Below, in pieces: positions 22,373 through 33,059 of a stretch of DNA of 64,000 nucleotides. A model generated the notes under the pieces. It made no database searches and had not been told where the DNA came from. It was given only the letters and a program-made list of their open reading frames with translations. The stretch lies in assembly GCF_003148625.1 (NCBI RefSeq), contig NZ_QGGO01000009.1, positions 62,001 to 126,000 of the forward strand. The letters run 5' to 3'. Source of the DNA: Arcicella aurantiaca (GTDB lineage: Bacteria; Bacteroidota; Bacteroidia; Cytophagales; Spirosomataceae). Position 1 is the stretch's first letter, and every line of letters begins with the position of its first letter. Both the position numbers and the translations under genes were made by a program.

Positions 22373-24037
22373 TTAGTATCCCTGATTTTGTGGAAATGTT
22401 GTTGCTCCACCTTCAGTACGGTCAATTTGAGTTTGAGGAATTGGTCTAACCAAGTGCATGGCTTTTACATTTGGTGCCGCTTGTGGATTATATTTCTGAA
22501 CTCTATCCACTAAATTACCCCAACGTTTCAAGTCCATCCAACGAATTTGCTCACCTACTAATTCACGTCCACGCTCTTCAATAATCATTTCCATGTTCAT
22601 TTGAGCTTGTGTGATTGTCATCGCTGCTTCTTTACCAGCGAATGCGGCACGGCGACGAACCAAGTTAACATTATCAGTTGCATCTTTTACTTTTCCTTGC
22701 AATAATTGTGCTTCAGCTAACATTAAATGTGTATCAGCTAAACGGAAACAGATAAAATCTCTACTACCAGCTTCGTAAGTTCTATCTGGGCGAAGTGGGT
22801 CTAAGAATTTTTGTAATGTTGGAAATAATGCTTCATTATAAAGACTCGGAACTAATACTTGATATGATTTTTTTGCTCTATCTGCCAATGACATTTCATA
22901 ACCTGGAATAAAAATGGTAGTATCTCCTGTTTTGAAAGTTACTGATTTCTTAGAGTTATCAAATACGTTGGTAAATGTTCCGGGACTATTACAAGTCCAA
23001 GTATCTTTAAACGTTTTTTTATAGCGAGAGTCATTTACTCTATCTCCAAATACAGTATTTAAACAGTAGGCAGTTGGGCGTAAACGTTTAAATGGGCGAC
23101 CATTAGCTACGTCACGAACCATACCCGCTTGTACGTCGTATTGCATTCCAAAAAACAAGTGTAAGTTATTTCCACCGCCATTGGTTAGGGCATCAGAAGT
23201 ATATTGAACTGCAAAAATGACTTCATCATTAACTTCTCCTGAGCCTTGAGCAAATACACTTGCAAAATCTGGCAATAACTTGAATCCGTAGTTTTTAATT
23301 ACGTTAGAAGAATACGTTTCTGATTTAGCATAGTCATCTGTAGCTTTTGCAGATGAGTTTCCTTTTGCTAAATAGACTCTTGCTAATAAATGTTCAGCCG
23401 CAGGTTTAGTTGCACGTCCATATTCAGATGAACGAATTTTATTCTCTAAATCTGGCAATGCTGATTCTAAATCTGCAATGATTGCTTTATACATATCAGC
23501 ATCACTTGCTCTTGAAGTAATTTTGGTAGGAGCTAACGTTTCTGTTAATCTTAAATCTACGCCACCAAATTGTTGAAAAAGAATAAAATAGTAATGAGCT
23601 CTTAAAAATTTAGCTTCGGCTATTCGTTGTTTTTTCAATGCGTCAGAAATACCTGTGGCTTTAGGAGCTCTCTCTATTACGGCATTACAAGTGTTGATTC
23701 CACGATAGGTTTCATCCCAGATGATTTGCAAATAATCTACTGTTGGTTGTAACTGTGTGTCATAAAAGTGAAATCCTTTATAACCACCATCGGCACCTGT
23801 TGCATATAAATCTGTACCATATTCAGTAACGGTGAGTCCTTGTTGCGTGCCATAGTAGTTTCTTAAAGGAGCATAAGCAGCCTTAACAGCATCTTCAAGC
23901 CCTTTAGGAGTATTTATATAATCGTTACCAATAGCTGAAACAACTGTTTCTTTCAATACATCTTCACATGACTGACCTGCCAACATTAGGGCAAGCAGAC
24001 TGAAAGTTCTTATTGATTTTATATATGATTTTTTCAT
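22373..24037 (-). CDS. SusD/RagB-family outer-membrane nutrient-binding lipoprotein
   Basis: This 554-residue protein has a lipoprotein signal with cysteine C24 in LAGQSC and then the helical SusD fold: an N-terminal GLEDAVKAAYAPLRNYYG, TPR-like helices (AEAKFLRAHYYFILFQQFGGV, ATKPAAEHLLARVYLAKGN) and the C-terminal signature NLVRRRAAF...EERGRELVGEQIRWMDLKRWGNLV. SusD proteins capture oligomers at the cell surface and hand them to the SusC channel. It follows susC on the same strand by about 80 bases. No enzyme adjoins the pair, so the substrate is unknown. Confidence 0.95.
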   Translation of the reverse strand: MKKSYIKSIRTFSLLALMLAGQSCEDVLKETVVSAIGNDYINTPKGLEDAVKAAYAPLRNYYGTQQGLTVTEYGTDLYATGADGGYKGFHFYDTQLQPTVDYLQIIWDETYRGINTCNAVIERAPKATGISDALKKQRIAEAKFLRAHYYFILFQQFGGVDLRLTETLAPTKITSRASDADMYKAIIADLESALPDLENKIRSSEYGRATKPAAEHLLARVYLAKGNSSAKATDDYAKSETYSSNVIKNYGFKLLPDFASVFAQGSGEVNDEVIFAVQYTSDALTNGGGNNLHLFFGMQYDVQAGMVRDVANGRPFKRLRPTAYCLNTVFGDRVNDSRYKKTFKDTWTCNSPGTFTNVFDNSKKSVTFKTGDTTIFIPGYEMSLADRAKKSYQVLVPSLYNEALFPTLQKFLDPLRPDRTYEAGSRDFICFRLADTHLMLAEAQLLQGKVKDATDNVNLVRRRAAFAGKEAAMTITQAQMNMEMIIEERGRELVGEQIRWMDLKRWGNLVDRVQKYNPQAAPNVKAMHLVRPIPQTQIDRTEGGATTFPQNQGY

Positions 24038-24115: not shown

Positions 24116-27100
24116 TTAGAATTTGACGTTTAAGCCAAGTGTAATAACACTGGTAGCAGGAGTAATACCATTGTTTACCGCCGTTCCTGATGTTTCAGGG
24201 TCAACTCCATTGTATTTGCTACGATATGTTGACCAAATGAACGGTTGTTGAATACTTGAGAACAAACGTAATGATTCCATTCCCATTTTCTTGGCAACTT
24301 GTGGTGTGAAAGTATATCCAAAATTAATGTTACGCAATTTGATGAAAGTACCGTCAAAATACATAATTGCAGTGTTATTTACTGGGAACTCTTGGTCTTT
24401 GTTTGGTTGTGGGAACTCATTAGTAGGATTGTTTGGAGTCCAGTAATCAACTTTAATTTGTTGATAACGACCCGCCAAAGCATTATTGTTTTGATGGAAA
24501 CCACTCACAATCATTTGTCCGAATCTTCCAAAGAAGAAGAATGATAAGTCAAACCCTTTATAAGTAAATCTGTTAGTGATACCTGCACTAAAATCAGGAA
24601 TATCTGAACCTAAAAGTACACGGTCGTCAGCATTAATTTTACCATCGCCATTAGTATCTTGAACTTTAATTTGTCCAACTCTACTACCATAAGATTTAGC
24701 TAAATCTGCTTCGTTTGTTTGCCAAATACCTGCTTTTTTGTAATCAAAGAATGCTGATAAAGGTTGTCCAATAAACCATTTGTTACCTAAGTCATCCTTT
24801 GCACCGTTATAAAGTGAAATGATAGCTTCTGTATTTTTAGAGAAGGTAAAATCAGTAGTCCATTTGAAACCACTTGCAGTATTAGCATTTACAGTAGTTA
24901 TTCCTAATTCAATACCTCTGTTACGAGTTTCACCAACGTTACGAGTTACAGCACTAAAGCCAATAGAACCTGGTAATTGGTCAGATAATAATAAGTCTGT
25001 TGTATTAGTTTCATATAATTCTAATGAACCTTGAATACGTCCTTTCAAGAAACTGAAATCTACACCAATATTTTTTGTTGCTGATGATTCCCATTTTAAG
25101 TCAGGATTACCAATTGTACTTGGACGGTATCCGTAAGCTGCCGCTGAGTTCCAAGCATAAATAGTACGACCTAACAAACCTTGAGTTTGATATGGTGATA
25201 CCCCTTGGTTACCTACTGAACCATAACTTGCTCTAAGTTTTAATAAGTCAATACCAGTCATTCCTTTCATGAAAGGCTCATTACTAATATTCCAACCGAA
25301 TGCAATACCTGGGAAGTTACCGTATTTGGTGTTTTCTCCAAAACGAGAAGAACCGTCTCTACGTAGTGTTAAAGTGAATAAGTATTTGTCGTTATAGTCA
25401 TAATTAACACGTGCCATATAAGAGTTGATTGTCCATTGAGATAAGATTGAACCAACACCTAAAACAGAACTTGCATTACCAACACTATAGAATTGTTGAC
25501 TTTCTGCAGGAATACCCTGTACAGAGATGTTACTTCCTTCAAAATTGTCTTTTTGGATTGAATGAAGAGCAGTAACAGCAAGGTTATGTACTTTATTATA
25601 CGTTTTATTATAACTAAGAATGTTTTCTAAAGTCCAGTTGAATCCATACTGACTTGTAGTTGATGCTTGAGGGTCTCCACCTTTACGAGCATTCGTTTGA
25701 GCTCCAATAAAACGTCCATTACGTTGAATTGTAAAGTCTGGACCAAAGTTTACACGGTATTTTAAGCCATCTAAAATTTTAACTTCTGCATATAAACTAT
25801 TGAAAATACGGTATTTTTTAGCTTCATCAACTTGAGCTCCAGGAACAATTTCCGCTAATGGGTTAGTTAAAAGGGCATCGTTTGTTGGAGCGAAAATGAT
25901 ATTTCCAGCATCGTCATACGCTTTTCCTAATGGGTTTTGTTGAATCGTGAATGAATACGGGTTCAAGTTTTCACCATTTCTAAGGCTATACATCAAGTAA
26001 GTAGAAACCCCAACTTTCAAAGATTTATTGATGTTATGGTCAATATTTACTCTTAACGAAGTTCTTGTAAAATCTAAACCTTCTGAAATACCTTTATCTT
26101 GGAAGTAGTTACCCGAGATATAAAACTGTGTTTTATCATTTCCTCCTTGAACACCCAATGAATGGTTTTGTTGGAAACCTTGACGAAGAATCATTGATTG
26201 ATAGTCAGTAGTACGTCCTTTAGCGATACCGTCTAATTCAACTGCTTCAAATAGTTTTGAGTCAGCATAAGCATCAATTTGTCCTGATGGAACAGGGTTC
26301 CCGTTAATATCCTTATATAAACTACCACTAACAACACCACGACGAGATTCACGGATGAATTCTGCAAATTCAGCTCCAGAGAATAATTTAATTTTATCGA
26401 GTGCATTTGTCACACCGACATAATTGTCATAACTAACAGTTGTTTTACCTTTTTCAGCACCTCTTTTAGTTGAGATAAGTACAACACCATTGGCACCTCT
26501 TGCTCCATAAATAGCTGTTGATGTAGCATCCTTTAGAATTTCCATTGATGCAACATCATTAGGGTTTAAATCTTCATAGCCAGCAGACAATGGAATACCA
26601 TCAACTACATAAAGCGGGTCATTACCTGCATTGAATGAACGACGACCACGAATTAAAATCTTTGGAACTGTACCGGGTTTACTACCTGATTGCGATACGT
26701 CAACTCCAGCAACACGACCTTGCATCGCTTGACCAAGGTTGGTAATTGGCATTTCAGCAATTTGTTTTGATGAAACTTGTGAAATCGCACCTGTCAACTG
26801 ACTTTTTTTCTGAGTACCATAACCAACCACAACTACTTCACCTAATGATTGAACATCAGAAGCTAACTTTAAGTCGATTACAGTTTTTGTTCCAACTTCA
26901 ACTTCCTGACCAACAAAACCAACTGCTGAAAATGTTAAAATTGCTTTGTTTGATACCGCAATTTTGTAATTCCCACTCGCATCAGAGGTTGTACCCTTAT
27001 TGGTACCTTTAATAGCGACACTTACTCCTGGTATTCCTTGACCATCTTCCGAAGAAGTGATTCTACCAGTTACAGATTGTTGACTGTAACCCGTTAGTGT

Positions 27101-27172
27101 AATAATCGATAGCATTAGGCAGATTGCCCAACCGATATTACCCCGAAATTTTTGTAAAGATTTCATACTCAT
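24116..27172 (-). CDS. SusC/RagA-family TonB-dependent outer-membrane receptor
   Basis: This 1,018-residue protein imports ligands through the outer membrane with TonB energy. After a signal peptide (to about YSQ, 31) comes a carboxypeptidase-regulatory-like domain (VTGRITSSEDGQGIPGVSV..., about 33-110), then the plug with LGEVVVVGYGTQ and the SusC hallmark PLYVVDGIPL (about 112-235), then a long beta-barrel ending GLNVKF. There is no STN domain before the regulatory-like domain, which means it lacks the usual signalling extension that contacts a FecR anti-sigma factor. It sits downstream of a short FecR-like gene and upstream of susD, in one likely operon. The start could also be the Met two codons later. 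Confidence 0.95.
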   Translation of the reverse strand: MSMKSLQKFRGNIGWAICLMLSIITLTGYSQQSVTGRITSSEDGQGIPGVSVAIKGTNKGTTSDASGNYKIAVSNKAILTFSAVGFVGQEVEVGTKTVIDLKLASDVQSLGEVVVVGYGTQKKSQLTGAISQVSSKQIAEMPITNLGQAMQGRVAGVDVSQSGSKPGTVPKILIRGRRSFNAGNDPLYVVDGIPLSAGYEDLNPNDVASMEILKDATSTAIYGARGANGVVLISTKRGAEKGKTTVSYDNYVGVTNALDKIKLFSGAEFAEFIRESRRGVVSGSLYKDINGNPVPSGQIDAYADSKLFEAVELDGIAKGRTTDYQSMILRQGFQQNHSLGVQGGNDKTQFYISGNYFQDKGISEGLDFTRTSLRVNIDHNINKSLKVGVSTYLMYSLRNGENLNPYSFTIQQNPLGKAYDDAGNIIFAPTNDALLTNPLAEIVPGAQVDEAKKYRIFNSLYAEVKILDGLKYRVNFGPDFTIQRNGRFIGAQTNARKGGDPQASTTSQYGFNWTLENILSYNKTYNKVHNLAVTALHSIQKDNFEGSNISVQGIPAESQQFYSVGNASSVLGVGSILSQWTINSYMARVNYDYNDKYLFTLTLRRDGSSRFGENTKYGNFPGIAFGWNISNEPFMKGMTGIDLLKLRASYGSVGNQGVSPYQTQGLLGRTIYAWNSAAAYGYRPSTIGNPDLKWESSATKNIGVDFSFLKGRIQGSLELYETNTTDLLLSDQLPGSIGFSAVTRNVGETRNRGIELGITTVNANTASGFKWTTDFTFSKNTEAIISLYNGAKDDLGNKWFIGQPLSAFFDYKKAGIWQTNEADLAKSYGSRVGQIKVQDTNGDGKINADDRVLLGSDIPDFSAGITNRFTYKGFDLSFFFFGRFGQMIVSGFHQNNNALAGRYQQIKVDYWTPNNPTNEFPQPNKDQEFPVNNTAIMYFDGTFIKLRNINFGYTFTPQVAKKMGMESLRLFSSIQQPFIWSTYRSKYNGVDPETSGTAVNNGITPATSVITLGLNVKF

Positions 27173-27220: not shown

Positions 27221-27487
27221 TTAAGTGGTACTGATTGTTTTTGTAATTTTTTCCCAGAGGTCGTCAATTTCTTGATGTGATAATTGATTGATATGAAGAG
27301 TTGGATTTAATATTTTATGTCGAGCCATTTCGATGTCATGTACTTTTTCAGGATGTTTTTTTAGAAAAGACTCCCAAAAAAAGGAATATATTAAGTTGTT
27401 TGGCGATTGAATCCATTCTGAGAAATAAGCGTCCTGTGCAAAGTCTTCCGAACCATATTTTTCATATTTTTGAAAATCTAATGCCAC
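27221..27487 (-). CDS. Short FecR N-terminal-like protein, possible stand-alone anti-sigma
   Basis: This 88-residue protein starts at GTG (no nearby in-frame ATG). The text YGSEDFAQDAYFSEWIQSPN, then FFWESFLKKHPEK and a helix with QEIDDLWEKI, resembles the cytosolic N-terminal domain of Bacteroidetes FecR anti-sigma factors, the part that binds the sigma factor. The transmembrane helix and the periplasmic FecR domain are absent, and the stop is 48 bases before the SusC start, so there is no room for a lost remainder. It lies between an ECF sigma gene and an STN-less SusC. It may be a soluble anti-sigma or a decayed remnant; no motif proves either. Confidence 0.6.
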   Translation of the reverse strand: MALDFQKYEKYGSEDFAQDAYFSEWIQSPNNLIYSFFWESFLKKHPEKVHDIEMARHKILNPTLHINQLSHQEIDDLWEKITKTISTT

Positions 27488-27615
27488 CTTGTTTTTTTTG
27501 TGATTTTTTGAGTTTATTTTGGATTATAATGTTAAAAGTCTTGCTCGTTTTCTTTCTACTCAAATAATTGAAAGATTTTTTATATTTTATCGTAAAATAA
27601 TGATGTATTGTAGAT

Positions 27616-27649
27616 AAAAAAAGCCCGATTGTCTCCAATCGGGCTTTTT
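27616..27649 (-). terminator. Intrinsic terminator after the ECF sigma gene
   Basis: AAGCCCGATT and AATCGGGCTT form a 10-base GC-rich stem with a 6-base loop, with A-run and T-run on either side. It separates the sigma gene from the FecR-like/susC/susD unit, which then needs its own promoter, probably within 27488-27615. Confidence 0.88.
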
Positions 27650-27667
27650 AATGCAGTTTATATTTTT

Positions 27668-28249
27668 TTAAGCAAATGCTAATTTGTCTTGCGAAATATG
27701 TTCTTTTAAAATCTTTAATGCTCCAAATATCAAGTTATATACCGACTGCGGATTGATATTCATCGCATTTGAAATTTGGTCTGTATCCATATCTTGAAAA
27801 AATTTCAACGATACTGCTTCTCTTTGTCTTTTGGTTAAATATCTGAATGACTCACTAAGATTATCTGACAAAAGCTTTTCTTCTTCAAAAGCTACCAAAC
27901 GATGTTCATGCGAGCCAATAAAATCAGGATTTTCAAGATAATAAGCTTCATGATGTTGAGTATGACGCTGTTGAGTTTCCAAATGTCTCACCAACTTACG
28001 TTTTATTGAAGCCATTAAGTAGAAACGTACAGAAGTAGTTTCACCTAAATTTTGATGATTTTTCCAAAGCTCAACAAACAAATCGTGCAAGCAATCTTTA
28101 ATTAATTCACGGTCTGGAGTGATGCTCGTGCTATAGTTATAAAGAAGGTTCACATAGTTTTGATAAATCTGTGTAAAGGCTGCGTGATTCCCTCCTCTGA
28201 AGTCATTCCACATTTTAATATCATCACTATTTTTTGGGCTAATCAACAT
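27668..28249 (-). CDS. ECF RNA polymerase sigma factor
   Basis: This 193-residue protein has sigma-70 region 2 (AFTQIYQNYVNLLYNYSTSIT...IKDCLHDLFVELWKNHQNL, about 24-70) and region 4 (LTKRQREAVSLKFFQDMDTDQISNAMNINPQSVYNLIFGALKIL, about 138-182). There is no region 1 or 3, as expected of an ECF factor. In Bacteroidota such factors near susC genes switch on their transport operon when a cognate anti-sigma receives a signal. The likely target is the susCD unit just downstream; the likely partner is the 88-residue protein. Its upstream gap carries a tandem AAACGTTT palindrome. Confidence 0.93.
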   Translation of the reverse strand: MLISPKNSDDIKMWNDFRGGNHAAFTQIYQNYVNLLYNYSTSITPDRELIKDCLHDLFVELWKNHQNLGETTSVRFYLMASIKRKLVRHLETQQRHTQHHEAYYLENPDFIGSHEHRLVAFEEEKLLSDNLSESFRYLTKRQREAVSLKFFQDMDTDQISNAMNINPQSVYNLIFGALKILKEHISQDKLAFA

Positions 28250-28640
28250 AATCTTGTTATGGTTATAAAGTAATATATAAACTTCAATAATTGATATTTG
28301 TCATAAAGATATACCAAAAAAATATCACTATTCAAGGGTTTTATTGAATATTTTTCCGTAAACGTTTACGGAAACGTTTACAGTTCAAAAAAATAAAAAT
28401 ACGGGTAAGTACAGATAGGTGAAAAATTAATATTTTAGAAGTCAGTAAATTTTTAAGATGGCTTGCTTTTAAGGGTTTTGTGACAAAAATCTTTTACTAC
28501 TTATGGTCGCTTTGGTTTCGTTGAGTAATTCTTCTCATTCGTCACAAGCTTTCGTTGAAATCAGGATAATCCGATTGGATATTACTTTTTTACCTTTTAC
28601 TTTTAAAGAATTATTCATCACTACCAAAAATCAAATACCA
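28250..28640. other. Divergent intergenic region
   Basis: This spacer separates the ECF sigma gene from the amidohydrolase gene. Apart from the tandem AAACGTTT palindromes I see no gene or terminator. In-frame sequence extends upstream of the amidohydrolase start from 28503, but it lacks a signal-peptide character and is probably untranslated. Confidence 0.5.
28358..28381. promoter_or_regulatory. Tandem AAACGTTT palindromes (LacI/GalR-like operator)
   Basis: GTAAACGTTTAC (28358-28369) is a perfect 12-base palindrome; GGAAACGTTTAC (28370-28381) follows at once. A central CG in an A/T-rich palindrome is typical of LacI/GalR-family operators. The site lies between the divergent ECF sigma and amidohydrolase genes. 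No LacI-type gene is in the window. Confidence 0.5.
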
Positions 28641-31600
28641 ATGAAAAAACTGTTTATTGCATTACTCAATTTTTTACTGTTGAGTCCCATTATTCATGCA
28701 CAAACCCAAACCTTCCCTCGAAATGGGGTACAAGATGAAAGACTTGACTTGTACGCTTTCACCAACGCAACAATCATTACAGATGTAAATACCACGCTTG
28801 AAGGCGCAACACTTATTATTAGAGGTTCAATAATTGAGGCTGTCGGTAAGGGAATTGCTATTCCAAGCGGTGCAACTGTGGTTGACTTAAAAGGTAAACG
28901 AATTTATCCTGCCTTCGTAGAAGCATATTCAAATTATGGTGTTCCTGAATTGAAGCGTGAAGGAACAGGTGGATTTAGAGGAGAACCTCAAATGGAATCT
29001 AAAAAGAAAGGAGCTTACAATTGGAATCAGGCTGTTTTACCAGAAACTGATGCTGCCAGTTTATTTACTGTAAATACTCCTGCGGCAGAGGAACTTCGTA
29101 AAATTGGTTTTGGTGCAACTATTAGTCACGTACAAGATGGAATCGTGCGTGGAACTTCTGCTTTAGTTGCTCTTATTGATGGTCGTGACCAAGAAGCTTT
29201 AATCAAAAGTAAGGTTTCAGCTCATTATTCCTTATCAAAAGGAACTTCAACGCAAGACTATCCAAATTCTTTGATGGGTTCGGTTGCTTTGTTACGCCAG
29301 ACTTATTACGATGCTGATTGGTTTAAGAAAGCAAAAACAAAAACTGAATTTAATATTTCTTTAGATGCTTTTAATAGCAATCAAGGAATTCCGCAAGTTT
29401 TTGAAACGACCGATAAATTAGGTGTTTTACGTGCCAATAAAATCGGAAAAGAATTTGGTATTCAATATATCATTAAAGGAATGGGGGATGAATACCAACG
29501 TCTTGATGAAGTGAAGGCAATCGGTGCATCTTTAATTTTACCATTAAATTTCCCGACAACGCCTGACGTGGAAGACCCACATGATGCAAGTGTTGTTTCA
29601 TTAGCTGAAATGAAGCATTGGGAAATGGCACCAGCCAATGCAGGAATTTTGTCTAAAGCAGGAATCAATTTTGCTTTGACGAGTTCAAACCTAAAATCAA
29701 GAGCAGATTTCTTAGCGAATCTTCGTAAAGCAATAGAAAATGGTTTAGACGAAAAAACGGCTTTAGCTGCTTTGACTTCAACGCCCGCAACGATGATGAA
29801 AGTTGAGAATTTAGTTGGCTCTCTGAAAACGGGAATGTTAGCGAACTTCTTAATTACTTCGGATAACTTATTCAAAGACGGAAACGTGATTTACGAAAAC
29901 TGGGTAAAAGGAAGACGTTACGTTTTGTCAAATATGAACGTAAATGATATTCGTGGTAATTATGATTTGTCAGTTGGTAATAATTCAAAATTGAAATTGA
30001 ATATTACTGGAAAAGCTGATAAACCAGAATATCAAATTGTAGTGACAGATTCAGTAAAGGTTACGCCAAAAGTAACTCGCATCAATGATTTCTTAACAAT
30101 CCTTTTTAAACTTGATGCTAAGAAGGAAAAAGCTGATTCGAGAATTAGTGCATATTATGATGGAAAGAATATCAAAGGAGAAGGCATTGATGCTGATGGA
30201 AAACCTTTTACATTATTAGCAACTTTTAAAGAAGCTGTAAAAGAAACTCCTGCAAAACTTGATACCGCAAAAAAAGCGAAAATTGAAATCGGAAAAATTC
30301 TTTATCCTTTCAATGGATACGGTAGCGAAGAGAAACCAAAAGCAGAAACTATTTTAGTGAAAAATGCAACGGTTTGGACGAATGAGTCGGTAGGAGTTAT
30401 TCAGAATACTGACGTTTTAATTTCAAACGGTAAAATTGCTCAAGTAGGTAAAAACTTGCCAAGTACAGGAGCAAAAGTTATTGATGGAACGGGAAAACAT
30501 TTAACAAACGGAATTTTTGATGAACACTCGCACATTGCACTTTTTGCGGTTAACGAAGGAACGCAGTCGGTTTCGGCGGAGGTGAGAATGGAAGACGTTG
30601 TCAATTCAGAAGATGTAAATATTTATCGTCAGTTAGCAGGTGGTGTAACGTCTTCTCAATTATTGCATGGTTCAGCCAATAGTATCGGTGGACAATCGGC
30701 AGTGATTAAATTGAAATGGGGTGAAGCTCCAGATGCGTTGAAAATTCAGAACATGGAAGGCTTCATTAAATTTGCTTTAGGTGAAAACGTAAAACAAGCC
30801 AACTGGGGCGACCGTGCAAGAGTTCGTTTTCCACAAACTCGTATGGGCGTTGAGCAAGTAATGATGGATGCTTTCTTGAGAGCAAAGGAATATGAAAAAG
30901 CCATGAAAAATACAACGGGTCTTCCTGTTAAACGTGATTTAGAATTAGATGCTTTAGTTGAGATTTTGAATAAAAAACGTTTTATCACTTGTCACTCTTA
31001 CGTACAGTCTGAAATTAATATGTTATTGAAAGTAGCTGATTCGGTTGGTTTCAAAGTAAATACATTTACACACATTTTAGAAGGCTATAAAGTAGCCGAT
31101 AAAATGAAAGCACACGGAGCAAACGGTTCAACATTCTCTGATTGGTGGGCATATAAAATGGAAGTAAAAGAAGCGATTCCTTTCAATGCAGCCTTGATGA
31201 CAAAAGTAGGGGTGAACACTTCAATCAATTCTGATGATGCAGAAATGGCTCGCCGTCTAAATCAAGAGGCTGCCAAAACGGTTATGTACGGAGGAATGAC
31301 TGAAGAAGAAGCTTGGAAAATGGTAACGTTGAACCCTGCCAAAATGATGCACTTGGATAATCGTTTGGGAAGTATTAAAGTTGGCAAAGATGCAGACGTT
31401 GTACTTTGGAATAATAATCCATTGTCGGTTTATGCAAAACCAGAGAAAGTTGTTATTGACGGTGCAGTCTATTTTGACATTGAAAAAGACAAAGTTTTAC
31501 GTGCCAATATTGCCACAGAACGTAGCCGTATTATTCAAAAAATGTTAGCTTCAAAAGCAGGAGGAGCCGCAACTGTAAAACCAGAAGCGAAGAAACCAAG

Positions 31601-31667
31601 ACAAATGTACTGTAATTCAGAAGGTGATATTTTTGCGGAAGAAACTCATACTGAGCATAACGATTAA
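28641..31667 (+). CDS. Secreted double amidohydrolase-family protein, one active half
   Basis: The ATG at 28641 gives a clean signal peptide (MKKLFIALLNFLLLSPIIHAQ); an in-frame extension to 28503 exists but would bury it. The 1,008-residue product has two amidohydrolase domains. The N-half has the domain edges (VVDLKGKRIYPAFVEAYSNYG; STPATMMKVENLVGSLKTGMLANFLI) but no HxH metal motif. The C-half has H629 and H631 in DEHSHI, H785 in CHSYV, H811 in THILEG and D865 in NSDDAEM, a full metal-ligand set as in imidazolonepropionase-like or secreted dipeptidase-type amidohydrolases. Substrate unknown. It ends at 31667 and a second amidohydrolase-like gene follows on the same strand. Confidence 0.87.
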   Translation: MKKLFIALLNFLLLSPIIHAQTQTFPRNGVQDERLDLYAFTNATIITDVNTTLEGATLIIRGSIIEAVGKGIAIPSGATVVDLKGKRIYPAFVEAYSNYGVPELKREGTGGFRGEPQMESKKKGAYNWNQAVLPETDAASLFTVNTPAAEELRKIGFGATISHVQDGIVRGTSALVALIDGRDQEALIKSKVSAHYSLSKGTSTQDYPNSLMGSVALLRQTYYDADWFKKAKTKTEFNISLDAFNSNQGIPQVFETTDKLGVLRANKIGKEFGIQYIIKGMGDEYQRLDEVKAIGASLILPLNFPTTPDVEDPHDASVVSLAEMKHWEMAPANAGILSKAGINFALTSSNLKSRADFLANLRKAIENGLDEKTALAALTSTPATMMKVENLVGSLKTGMLANFLITSDNLFKDGNVIYENWVKGRRYVLSNMNVNDIRGNYDLSVGNNSKLKLNITGKADKPEYQIVVTDSVKVTPKVTRINDFLTILFKLDAKKEKADSRISAYYDGKNIKGEGIDADGKPFTLLATFKEAVKETPAKLDTAKKAKIEIGKILYPFNGYGSEEKPKAETILVKNATVWTNESVGVIQNTDVLISNGKIAQVGKNLPSTGAKVIDGTGKHLTNGIFDEHSHIALFAVNEGTQSVSAEVRMEDVVNSEDVNIYRQLAGGVTSSQLLHGSANSIGGQSAVIKLKWGEAPDALKIQNMEGFIKFALGENVKQANWGDRARVRFPQTRMGVEQVMMDAFLRAKEYEKAMKNTTGLPVKRDLELDALVEILNKKRFITCHSYVQSEINMLLKVADSVGFKVNTFTHILEGYKVADKMKAHGANGSTFSDWWAYKMEVKEAIPFNAALMTKVGVNTSINSDDAEMARRLNQEAAKTVMYGGMTEEEAWKMVTLNPAKMMHLDNRLGSIKVGKDADVVLWNNNPLSVYAKPEKVVIDGAVYFDIEKDKVLRANIATERSRIIQKMLASKAGGAATVKPEAKKPRQMYCNSEGDIFAEETHTEHND

Positions 31668-31673
31668 ATGATG

Positions 31674-31735
31674 GTAGAGGCGAATAGCATTCGCCTTTGG
31701 TTTAGATTCTTTGGGCGAATTCTATTCGCTCCTAC
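31674..31735. repeat. GTAGgggCGAATAG...ATTCGCC inverted repeat
   Basis: Arms of about 23 bases, 31674-31696 and 31713-31735, pair with three mismatches. The repeat lies between the two amidohydrolase genes and includes GGCGAATAGCATTCGCC, itself nearly palindromic. This argues that translation of the next gene starts after it. Confidence 0.75.
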
Positions 31736-31754
31736 AAAATTATCCAACAGAAAA

Positions 31755-33059
31755 ATGAAAAACTTAAAATACATATATATAGCTGTATTCGTATTTATCT
31801 CGAATACTATTTTTGCCCAAAACCAAGCGGCAGGTAGTCCACAAACAAAAGCCATTGCTTTGGTGGGTGCTACCATTCATACTGCTACGGGACAAGTTAT
31901 TGAAAATGGCGTTATTGTCTTTAATAAAGGAATAATCACAGCAATTGGGGGTGTTGGTACGGCTTATGATAAAGTCAATACTGAAACGATTGATGTGGCA
32001 GGAAAAAGGATTTATCCCGGATTAATTTCACCCGTGAATAGTTTAGGTTTAGTAGAAATTGAAGCCGTTCGTGCTACCAATGATTTAAGCGAAATCGGAG
32101 GGATTAATCCTCACGTAAGGTCTTTGATTGCTTACAATACAGATTCAGAATTGATTCCGACCGTAAGAAGTAATGGAATTTTAATTACTCAGCCAACGCC
32201 ACAAGGGGAAATTATTGGCGGAATGTCGTCGGTAATGCAAATGGATGGTTGGAACTGGGAAGATGCCGTTTTGAAAAAAGATGATGGTATTCACTTAAAT
32301 TGGATTGGTTATTTCAAGCGTGAATTTGATTTTGCCACAGGTACTGCCAGCACCAAAAGAAATGATAAACGTGATGATATGGTGCGTGAATTAGACAAAA
32401 CTTTCAATGATGCCATTGCTTATGCACAAGTGAAAAATCCTGCAACAATTAATGTAAAATTGGAAGCAATGAAAGGGCTTTTTGATGGTACTAAAAACCT
32501 TTATATTAGTGCTGATTATGGTAAAGAAATCATTGAAGCAGTGCAATTTGCGAAGTCGAAGGGAGTAAAGAACATTGTAATTATTGGAGCAGAAGAAGCT
32601 CTTTTAGCCGCAGATTTCTTAAAGGAAAATAACGTTTCTGTTATTGTAAGTTCAACGCATCGTTTGCCAAATAATGCCGATGATGATACTGACATCGCTT
32701 ATAAATTGCCATATTTACTGTCTCAAAAAGGTATTTTAGTGGGTTTGGCTTATGTAGGTTTAAACTGGAGAACTCGTAATTTACCATTTTTAGCAGGTAC
32801 AGTAGCAGGTCACGGAATGAGCAAAGAACAAGCATTACAATTGATTACTGCTAATAATGCTAAAATTTTAGGCATAGATAAAATGGTGGGTACACTTGAA
32901 ATTGGCAAACACGCAACACTAATTGTGTCAGCGGGAGATGCCTTAGATATGCGTACAGCTAAAATTGAACAGGCATTTATCCAAGGTCGTAAAGTAGATT
33001 TGGACGATAAACAAAAAAGATTGTATCGTAAATATTCGGAGAAATACGGAACGAAATAA
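31755..33059 (+). CDS. Secreted amidohydrolase-like protein lacking metal ligands
   Basis: I choose the ATG at 31755, which gives a signal peptide (MKNLKYIYIAVFVFISNTIFAQ) and a 434-residue product; longer in-frame sequence from 31668 only translates the palindromic repeat. The amidohydrolase beta-sandwich edges are clear (ALVGATIHTATGQVIENGVI; ITANNAKILGIDKMVGTLEIGKHATLIV), but the HxH motif is replaced by YPGLISPVNSLGL and no later His/Asp ligand set stands out. It resembles the N-half of the preceding protein. It may be a non-catalytic partner of the active upstream domain, in the periplasm. Confidence 0.82.
   Translation: MKNLKYIYIAVFVFISNTIFAQNQAAGSPQTKAIALVGATIHTATGQVIENGVIVFNKGIITAIGGVGTAYDKVNTETIDVAGKRIYPGLISPVNSLGLVEIEAVRATNDLSEIGGINPHVRSLIAYNTDSELIPTVRSNGILITQPTPQGEIIGGMSSVMQMDGWNWEDAVLKKDDGIHLNWIGYFKREFDFATGTASTKRNDKRDDMVRELDKTFNDAIAYAQVKNPATINVKLEAMKGLFDGTKNLYISADYGKEIIEAVQFAKSKGVKNIVIIGAEEALLAADFLKENNVSVIVSSTHRLPNNADDDTDIAYKLPYLLSQKGILVGLAYVGLNWRTRNLPFLAGTVAGHGMSKEQALQLITANNAKILGIDKMVGTLEIGKHATLIVSAGDALDMRTAKIEQAFIQGRKVDLDDKQKRLYRKYSEKYGTK

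Follow-up and report, generated by a model that had tools for sequence, protein, structure and literature searches.

The closest described relatives of the system considered here are the signalling systems of the FecI-FecR-FecA type and their SusCD versions, in which a sigma factor is combined with a membrane FecR and an STN-bearing receptor, and the class I anti-sigma factors, whose anti-sigma domain (ASD) binds sigma region 4 with three helices and, beyond a linker, region 2 with a fourth (PMC7406223). Isolated N-terminal parts of such proteins have been studied. The 73-residue FecR-like N-domain of LIC12756 from Leptospira, expressed alone in Escherichia coli, inhibited and stabilised its sigma factor and is described as devoid of pro-sigma activity (PMC13118517). 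This article addresses a locus carried by a stretch of 64,000 nucleotides from Arcicella aurantiaca (contig NZ_QGGO01000009.1, positions 62,001 to 126,000; hereafter the window), in which a short gene lies between an extracytoplasmic function (ECF) sigma factor gene and a susC-susD pair. Sequence comparison confirms its 88-residue product as a homologue of the cytoplasmic ASD of FecR, without membrane or periplasmic part. We lean, by a modest measure, towards a role as a sigma-binding brake made from the sigma factor's own promoter, which would form a feedback loop deaf to the outside.

The short protein aligns with the N-termini of two full-length FecRs from the same genome (35%, E 1.3e-9, for a 370-residue open frame; 26%, E 0.001) and with anchored and full-length FecR forms in an alignment of 16 family members. 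The near-invariant positions of this alignment (F22, W25, F37, W38, P46, A55, L77, W78 and I81) are common to the anchored and full-length FecRs. No transmembrane stretch was found, the best 19-residue mean Kyte-Doolittle value being 0.03 against 1.67-3.11 in anchored relatives. Pfam and NCBIfam detect nothing above their cut-offs in the short protein, including periplasmic FecR (PF04773) and FecR_C (PF16344); in full-length FecRs, Pfam likewise covers only residue 127-132 onward and not the ASD region. A structure model with a mean pLDDT of 73, built from a two-sequence alignment, predicts a series of helices that extends to residue 60, then a weak stretch and finally a helix at residues 71-86, an arrangement that would fit the three-helix bundle, linker and fourth helix of class I domains. 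The best PDB profile matches, to choline/ethanolamine kinases (E 0.003), and a match to DUF7000 (E 0.019, under its cut-off) were taken as chance.

The neighbouring sigma factor exceeds the Pfam cut-offs for Sigma70_r2 and r4_2 and the cut-off of TIGR02937 (76.2 for 42.9); it stays under that of the Bacteroidota model TIGR02985 (93.9 for 126.4). The SusC matches the SusC/RagA model TIGR04056 over its full length (843.8, curated cut-off 368.25) and displays the CarbopepD_reg_2, Plug and barrel domains by Pfam, with neither an STN domain nor an N-terminal extension. The original prediction of an FecR-like 88-residue protein devoid of membrane and periplasmic parts, beside an ECF sigma factor and an STN-less SusC, is therefore borne out by hydropathy, Pfam and the FecR alignment. 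Transcription proceeds in the order sigma, short gene, susC, susD, and the short gene ends cleanly before susC, as predicted: the gap from its stop to susC is 49 nt, so that no FecR remnant fits between the two genes. Ordinary signalling has not vanished from the host genome, since one of its two matched FecRs lies 5' of a receptor start whose STN-like match (E 2.7e-6) falls narrowly short of the Pfam cut-off.

Homologues are kept in this position, as the original prediction needed. Indeed, the short gene precedes the orthologous susC in 14 of 200 family genomes belonging to three genera, namely eight of g1, five of g2 and one of g6 (codes in g, f, G and L label the genera, families, genomes and loci of the relatives compared). 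The sigma gene adjoins it in 13 of these 14, the draft G052 having its sigma gene on another contig. The frame is intact in 13 as well; in G078 (L110, g2) it is broken into two frames, which may reflect a sequencing error or early decay. The start codon is GTG in seven of the eight g1 genomes and TTG in the eighth. Within g1, the ratio of non-synonymous to synonymous substitution rates (dN/dS) is 0.11-0.38 for the short gene (21 of 28 pairs with computable dS) and 0.02-0.04 for the sigma gene (12 of 28 pairs), many dS values exceeding 1. Judging from these ratios, the short gene evolves under purifying selection; a pseudogene or fragment is ruled out by its conservation, its dN/dS and the 49-nt gap.

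The sigma factor and the ASD are also associated far beyond these 14 genomes. Taking one match per genome at E<=1e-45 as presence, the sigma factor was found in 156 of the 200 family genomes and in 23 of 36 genera. The anchored form of the ASD, used as query at E<=1e-15, gave exactly one match in 112 genomes, 110 of which are sigma-positive; the two others are the drafts G137 and G199, whose completeness is 82-83%. That leaves 46 sigma-positive genomes with no anchored-form match: 14 with the soluble form, 31 of g13/g31 with remnants, and G128, in which neither form was found. Conversely, 42 of the 44 sigma-negative genomes also lack the ASD. In a targeted check of 44 genomes, one core ASD of at least 81 bits was found in all 18 sigma-positive genomes, 16 of which lacked an ASD beside the core susC, and in none of the 26 sigma-negative ones (best 41 bits). 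In g1 (except G052), g2, g6 and g13/g31, the sigma gene directly precedes the ASD gene or its remnant, followed by susC. Elsewhere the two genes can be separated: no ASD gene lies in the 7 kb inspected at any of seven sigma loci (g3, g5, g9, two of g27, g32 and g33). This near-perfect co-occurrence across 200 genomes indicates that sigma and ASD are kept as a pair even when unlinked.

Ahead of the ASD gene, almost all sigma-positive lineages, the outgroup included, carry a two-box promoter-like element, GAGTAGAAA-N14-CTTT, which is likely to be the sigma factor's own promoter. In g1, the gap upstream of the short gene carries (G/A)AGTAGAAA, 14-15 bases and CTTT in all eight genomes; the form found in g33 is GAGTATAA, and (G/A)AGTA, a similar gap and CTTT can be read off the alignment in 21/21 g13/g31 genomes. 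Core-susC loci, 104 in number, were tabulated from the 186 genomes with a SusC match and hand-picked for genus spread; G176, whose locus L108 has 638 bases with nothing upstream, was dropped. The strict element occurs in 46 of the 104, in every case with a copy in front of the ASD gene; two more (g32) have a loose match. The remaining 56 include 13 sigma-negative loci, none of which has the strict element before susC, nine with the ASD elsewhere (three of g3, five of g9, and G048), 20 of g33, 10 of g13/g31 and four with one altered base before the ASD (g12, g18, g30 and G026). When the upstream stretches were scored, 35 of 39 core-ASD genes (one genome, G003, being also among the 46) reached at least 10 of 11: 5/5 in g9, 1/1 in g3, 2/2 in g27, 2/2 in g16, 16/18 in g33, 3/3 in the outgroup family f5, and one each in g4, g7, g12, g18, g25 and g30. 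The seven ASD genes that are not beside susC (g3, g9 and G048) all reach this score, and none of 13 other FecR genes does (best 9). When the same stretch was shuffled 200 times, a score of 11 came up at most once. The window holds one match for 0.05 expected.

Between the sigma gene and the short gene lies a hairpin followed by a U-run (-21.5 kcal/mol, z -6.7), which a simple terminator scan did not list. Neither this hairpin nor the element figures in the original prediction. As the two separate the short gene from the sigma gene, the short gene appears to open the susCD unit. A sigma-short gene operon is unlikely, given the hairpin, the element between the genes and the unlinked pair of the draft G052. 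Autoregulation of the sigma gene found no support either, no good element being present upstream of it in 11 loci (scores 7-9.5 of 11). In four of the five g2 genomes (L010, L012, L013 and L110), a second copy of the element was seen at a greater distance upstream, shortly past a hairpin-like stretch that follows the sigma gene.

The origin of the short protein from a FecR-type full signalling system is well supported. The FecR-like proteins form size classes: full, without C-domain, stub, anchor only, soluble (as in the window), one helix, and nothing. In those encoded beside the core susC, the tail that follows the ASD measures 269-271 residues in G016 and G026, 176-196 in g5, g19, g30 and the other seven of g17, 78-86 in g4, g12 and g18, 42-48 in g32 and g33, and 1-4 in g1, g2 and g6; G038 and G054 were assigned to their class from open-frame length alone. 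Pfam detects FecR and FecR_C in the four full-length members tested (L082, L091, L184 and L172), FecR alone in both middle-class members tested (L083 and L163), and nothing in four shorter ones (L073, L098, L100 and L017). In g13/g31, of which 21 of 31 sigma-positive genomes were covered, a frame of 44-77 residues occupies the same place in 20 of the 21, the script having found none in the last, and these small proteins are alike across subgroups mainly in their last ~24 residues, which correspond to the last ASD helix.

Among the 104 SusCs of the family, only two (G016 and G026) carry an STN-like extension, of 124-126 residues, and both have a full FecR at the locus. This call rests on the extension itself, on a profile of five control STN receptors (7.7e-6 and 4e-4, with these two sequences as the whole database) and on hhalign (64%), since the Pfam STN model is weak there: G016 reaches E 0.066, and G026 has no STN match but one to FecR_C at 7e-4. 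The three f5 outgroup genomes carry, in the same order, a sigma gene, a gene for a full-length FecR and a susC whose product has a long, STN-like N-terminus; L174 alone passed the STN profile, the two other SusCs being STN-like by their long N-termini and a shared HILYN. G048 keeps FecR_C, in an ASD gene away from susC, and its core SusC has no STN domain, which suggests that STN was probably lost first. A large grade then displays loss of FecR_C with retention of the FecR domain and anchor, and the anchor was lost later. The original prediction that both halves of the trans-envelope contact were lost together thus holds for the clade as a whole, the outgroup keeping both, but not as a single step, as G048 and the later loss of the anchor indicate.

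On a tree of the SusC N-termini (104 rows plus three outgroup rows, 204 columns, 33 of 104 inner branches open), the FecR classes need 13 changes, for a mean of 63 after shuffling. One branch (support 95) gathers 26 of 29 anchor-only, 14 of 14 soluble and 7 of 10 remnant rows together with all 13 of the 'none' class, without establishing the soluble rows as a clade of their own. The SusCs of G032, G119 and G141 (g33) and of G090, G107 and G155 (g13) fall outside their own genus and may therefore be paralogues. Tentatively, these data can be read as a signalling system dismantled from the outside inwards with its inner loop kept: STN would have gone, then the STN-binding end of FecR, the periplasmic domain, the anchor and lastly, in g13/g31, everything except a single sigma-binding helix carried by a protein of 44-77 residues. 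What is left would be an autoregulatory loop independent of any signal, composed of the sigma factor, its private promoter and a sigma-binding peptide made from that promoter. In Pseudomonas, the signalling domain of the receptor shields the anti-sigma factor from proteolysis (PMC11637429), so that loss of STN could itself have relieved repression and set off the decay.

The way in which such a loop may work in the window can be outlined as follows. A canonical ancestor would have possessed a sigma factor, a membrane FecR, an STN-bearing SusC and a SusD, from which this lineage would have removed the STN of the receptor and the periplasmic part and membrane anchor of FecR. The adjacent ECF sigma factor would transcribe short gene, susC and susD from GAGTAGAAA-N14-CTTT, and the short protein, as first product of the transcript, would bind the sigma factor, contacting region 4 through its helix bundle and region 2 through its last helix. 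The bound sigma factor would support less further transcription, so that the level of SusCD would limit itself without any outside signal. As the element precedes the short gene and no sensing part is left, a loop is the simplest reading. Of the original prediction, control of the protein by its own level is therefore favoured, the short gene following what is likely the sigma factor's own promoter.

A helper role is the chief competing explanation. The short protein could be a natural equivalent of FecR1-85 of E. coli, that is, a permanently active pro-sigma factor or chaperone which would stabilise the sigma factor and keep susCD on. In E. coli, FecI is active without inducer in mutants whose fecR has a nonsense codon at position 82 or 202, and likewise with fragments from 1-59 onward, and FecR1-85 is close in size to the product of RseP (PMC9249621); the size and end point of the short protein (88 residues, no anchor) match, the Leptospira N-domain does stabilise its sigma factor (PMC13118517), and a helper would account for an ASD that outlived every sensing part. 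However, the helper segment of FecR covers residues 9-59 (PMC9249621), which probably leaves out the last helix, and it is this region-2 helix, not the helper segment, that g13/g31 appear to retain, which is why the brake is favoured. Furthermore, the N-terminal fragment of FpvR inhibits (PMC9249621), and pro-sigma activity is reported absent from the Leptospira domain (PMC13118517). A helper role appears rather unlikely. A soluble anti-sigma factor that would release the sigma factor on sensing a cytoplasmic ligand, partner protein or protease would provide the input expected for an inducible susCD. But the predicted ASD-like helices use up all 88 residues, the near-invariant residues do not point to a new pocket since anchored and full-length FecRs share them, and no common Cys/His pattern stands out in the 16-member alignment. 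Cytoplasmic sensing, the other suggestion of the original prediction, finds no support here and is improbable. Slightly less probable still is a relic on its way out, with weak or no binding, effectively constitutive SusCD and a gene kept for a minor reason such as susC translation. The loss series does end in the g13/g31 remnants and in joint loss of sigma and ASD, and the short gene is split in G078; such a relic is difficult to reconcile with the dN/dS of the short gene within g1, with the retained element and near-invariant residues, and with a g13/g31 frame intact in 20 of 21 genomes.

Several observations nevertheless weigh against a brake made from the sigma factor's own promoter. FecI activity without inducer is obtained in E. 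coli with FecR fragments as short as 1-59 and as long as 1-116 (PMC9249621), so the sign of the short protein's effect may be opposite. The structure model was built from two sequences only, and the short protein has neither a PDB relative by profile search nor a useful fold match by Foldseek or VIA-align 2. In the tree, the soluble class shares its branch with losses of the entire regulator, the pattern expected of a decaying system. Four of the 39 core-ASD genes have no good element (7.5 in G007, 9 in G023, 9 in G162 and 7 in G141, of 11), and a score of 10 is also reached by 0 to 6 of 200 shuffles. The element displays no genome-wide enrichment in the host genome (17 matches, 20 for the reversed control) and little over the eight g1 genomes (18 for 12 reversed, 7 of the 18 being the short-gene sites). 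The link between sigma factor and element is therefore drawn from conservation and co-occurrence, a larger regulon finds no support in the host genome, which shows no enrichment over the reversed pattern, and the regulon is probably very small. Five of the 16 other element sites of the host genome look intergenic by a simple open reading frame test, three of them with an open reading frame downstream.

Table 1. Features of the locus, with positions in the window
Feature	Positions	Strand	Remarks
Short FecR-type ASD protein gene	27221-27487	minus	88 residues, GTG start
ECF sigma factor gene, probable partner of the short protein	27668-28249	minus	193 residues
SusC/RagA outer-membrane transporter gene, without STN domain	24116-27172	minus	1018 residues
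SusD-family lipoprotein gene	22373-24037	minus	554 residues
Codons for the last predicted helix of the short protein	27230-27277	minus	residues 71-86; part surviving in g13/g31
Promoter-like element before the short gene	27535-27561	minus	GAGTAGAAA at 27553-27561, 14 bases, CTTT at 27535-27538
Terminator-like hairpin at the end of the sigma gene	27618-27649	minus	

Two genes are divergent from the sigma gene in the window, at 28503-31667 (amidohydrolase by Pfam) and 31668-33059; in G052, the sigma gene still adjoins a similar gene, although the short gene and susC are elsewhere. In six of the seven inspected sigma loci (L165-L170), the sigma gene lies between adenine-deaminase-like and RarA/MgsA-like genes, and the seventh (G002) has the deaminase-like neighbour only; these neighbours were Pfam-checked in G134 (L166) only. 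In two genomes of the sigma-negative g28, a divergent gene of an AraC-family regulator precedes the core susC (L093:3391-4254, assigned by Pfam, and L094:3405-4268, assigned by a similar start), perhaps as a replacement for the lost sigma control. In three genomes, two of g9 and one of g29 (G028), a different ECF sigma gene is the neighbour of the core susC (L076:3554-4240, L106:3558-4172 and L095:3721-4392; by Pfam for L076 and L095), possibly another change of regulator.

Compared with known systems, the locus shares a common origin with FecI-FecR-FecA signalling and its SusCD versions, the f5 outgroup having the same gene order and the same promoter-like element. Relative to that type, the window system retains the ASD and the sigma factor but is devoid of STN, FecR domain, FecR_C and anchor, and hence presumably of any outside signal; in addition, the hairpin parts the sigma gene from the ASD gene. 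In E. coli, FecR1-85 and the N-terminal fragment released from FecR by proteolysis correspond to the same part of the protein at nearly the same size (PMC9249621), whereas the short protein is an entire gene product. Like soluble class I anti-sigma factors (PMC7406223), it would be a cytoplasmic ASD whose final helix, as predicted, follows a linker; the isolated FecR-like domain of LIC12756 inhibited its sigma factor (PMC13118517). Unlike these, it derives stepwise from a membrane FecR and appears to be made in the SusCD unit, the Leptospira domain being a cut-down construct. Dma anti-sigma factors, as their name implies, span two membranes (PMC13088901); the short protein has no transmembrane stretch. 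In a literature search of partial coverage, neither a natural soluble FecR N-domain nor such a truncation ladder was found. The co-occurrence of sigma factor and ASD, linked or not, the conserved element and the discrete steps of FecR shortening are new here.

Depending on the sigma factor, FecR N-domains act as inhibitors or as activators; the evidence considered here comes from cut-down constructs and mutants (PMC9249621, PMC13118517). Beside orthologues of one sigma factor and one element, evolution has kept equivalent constructs: full FecR, FecR without C-domain, anchor only, soluble, one helix and none. This natural series could be used to assign the binding, inhibiting and helping parts of the protein and to see a signalling system turn constitutive, and it offers a candidate promoter sequence for a FecI-like sigma factor of Bacteroidota. 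If the proposed dismantling from the outside inwards is true, the g13/g31 proteins, with one working helix and a basic leader, would be among the smallest sigma regulators.
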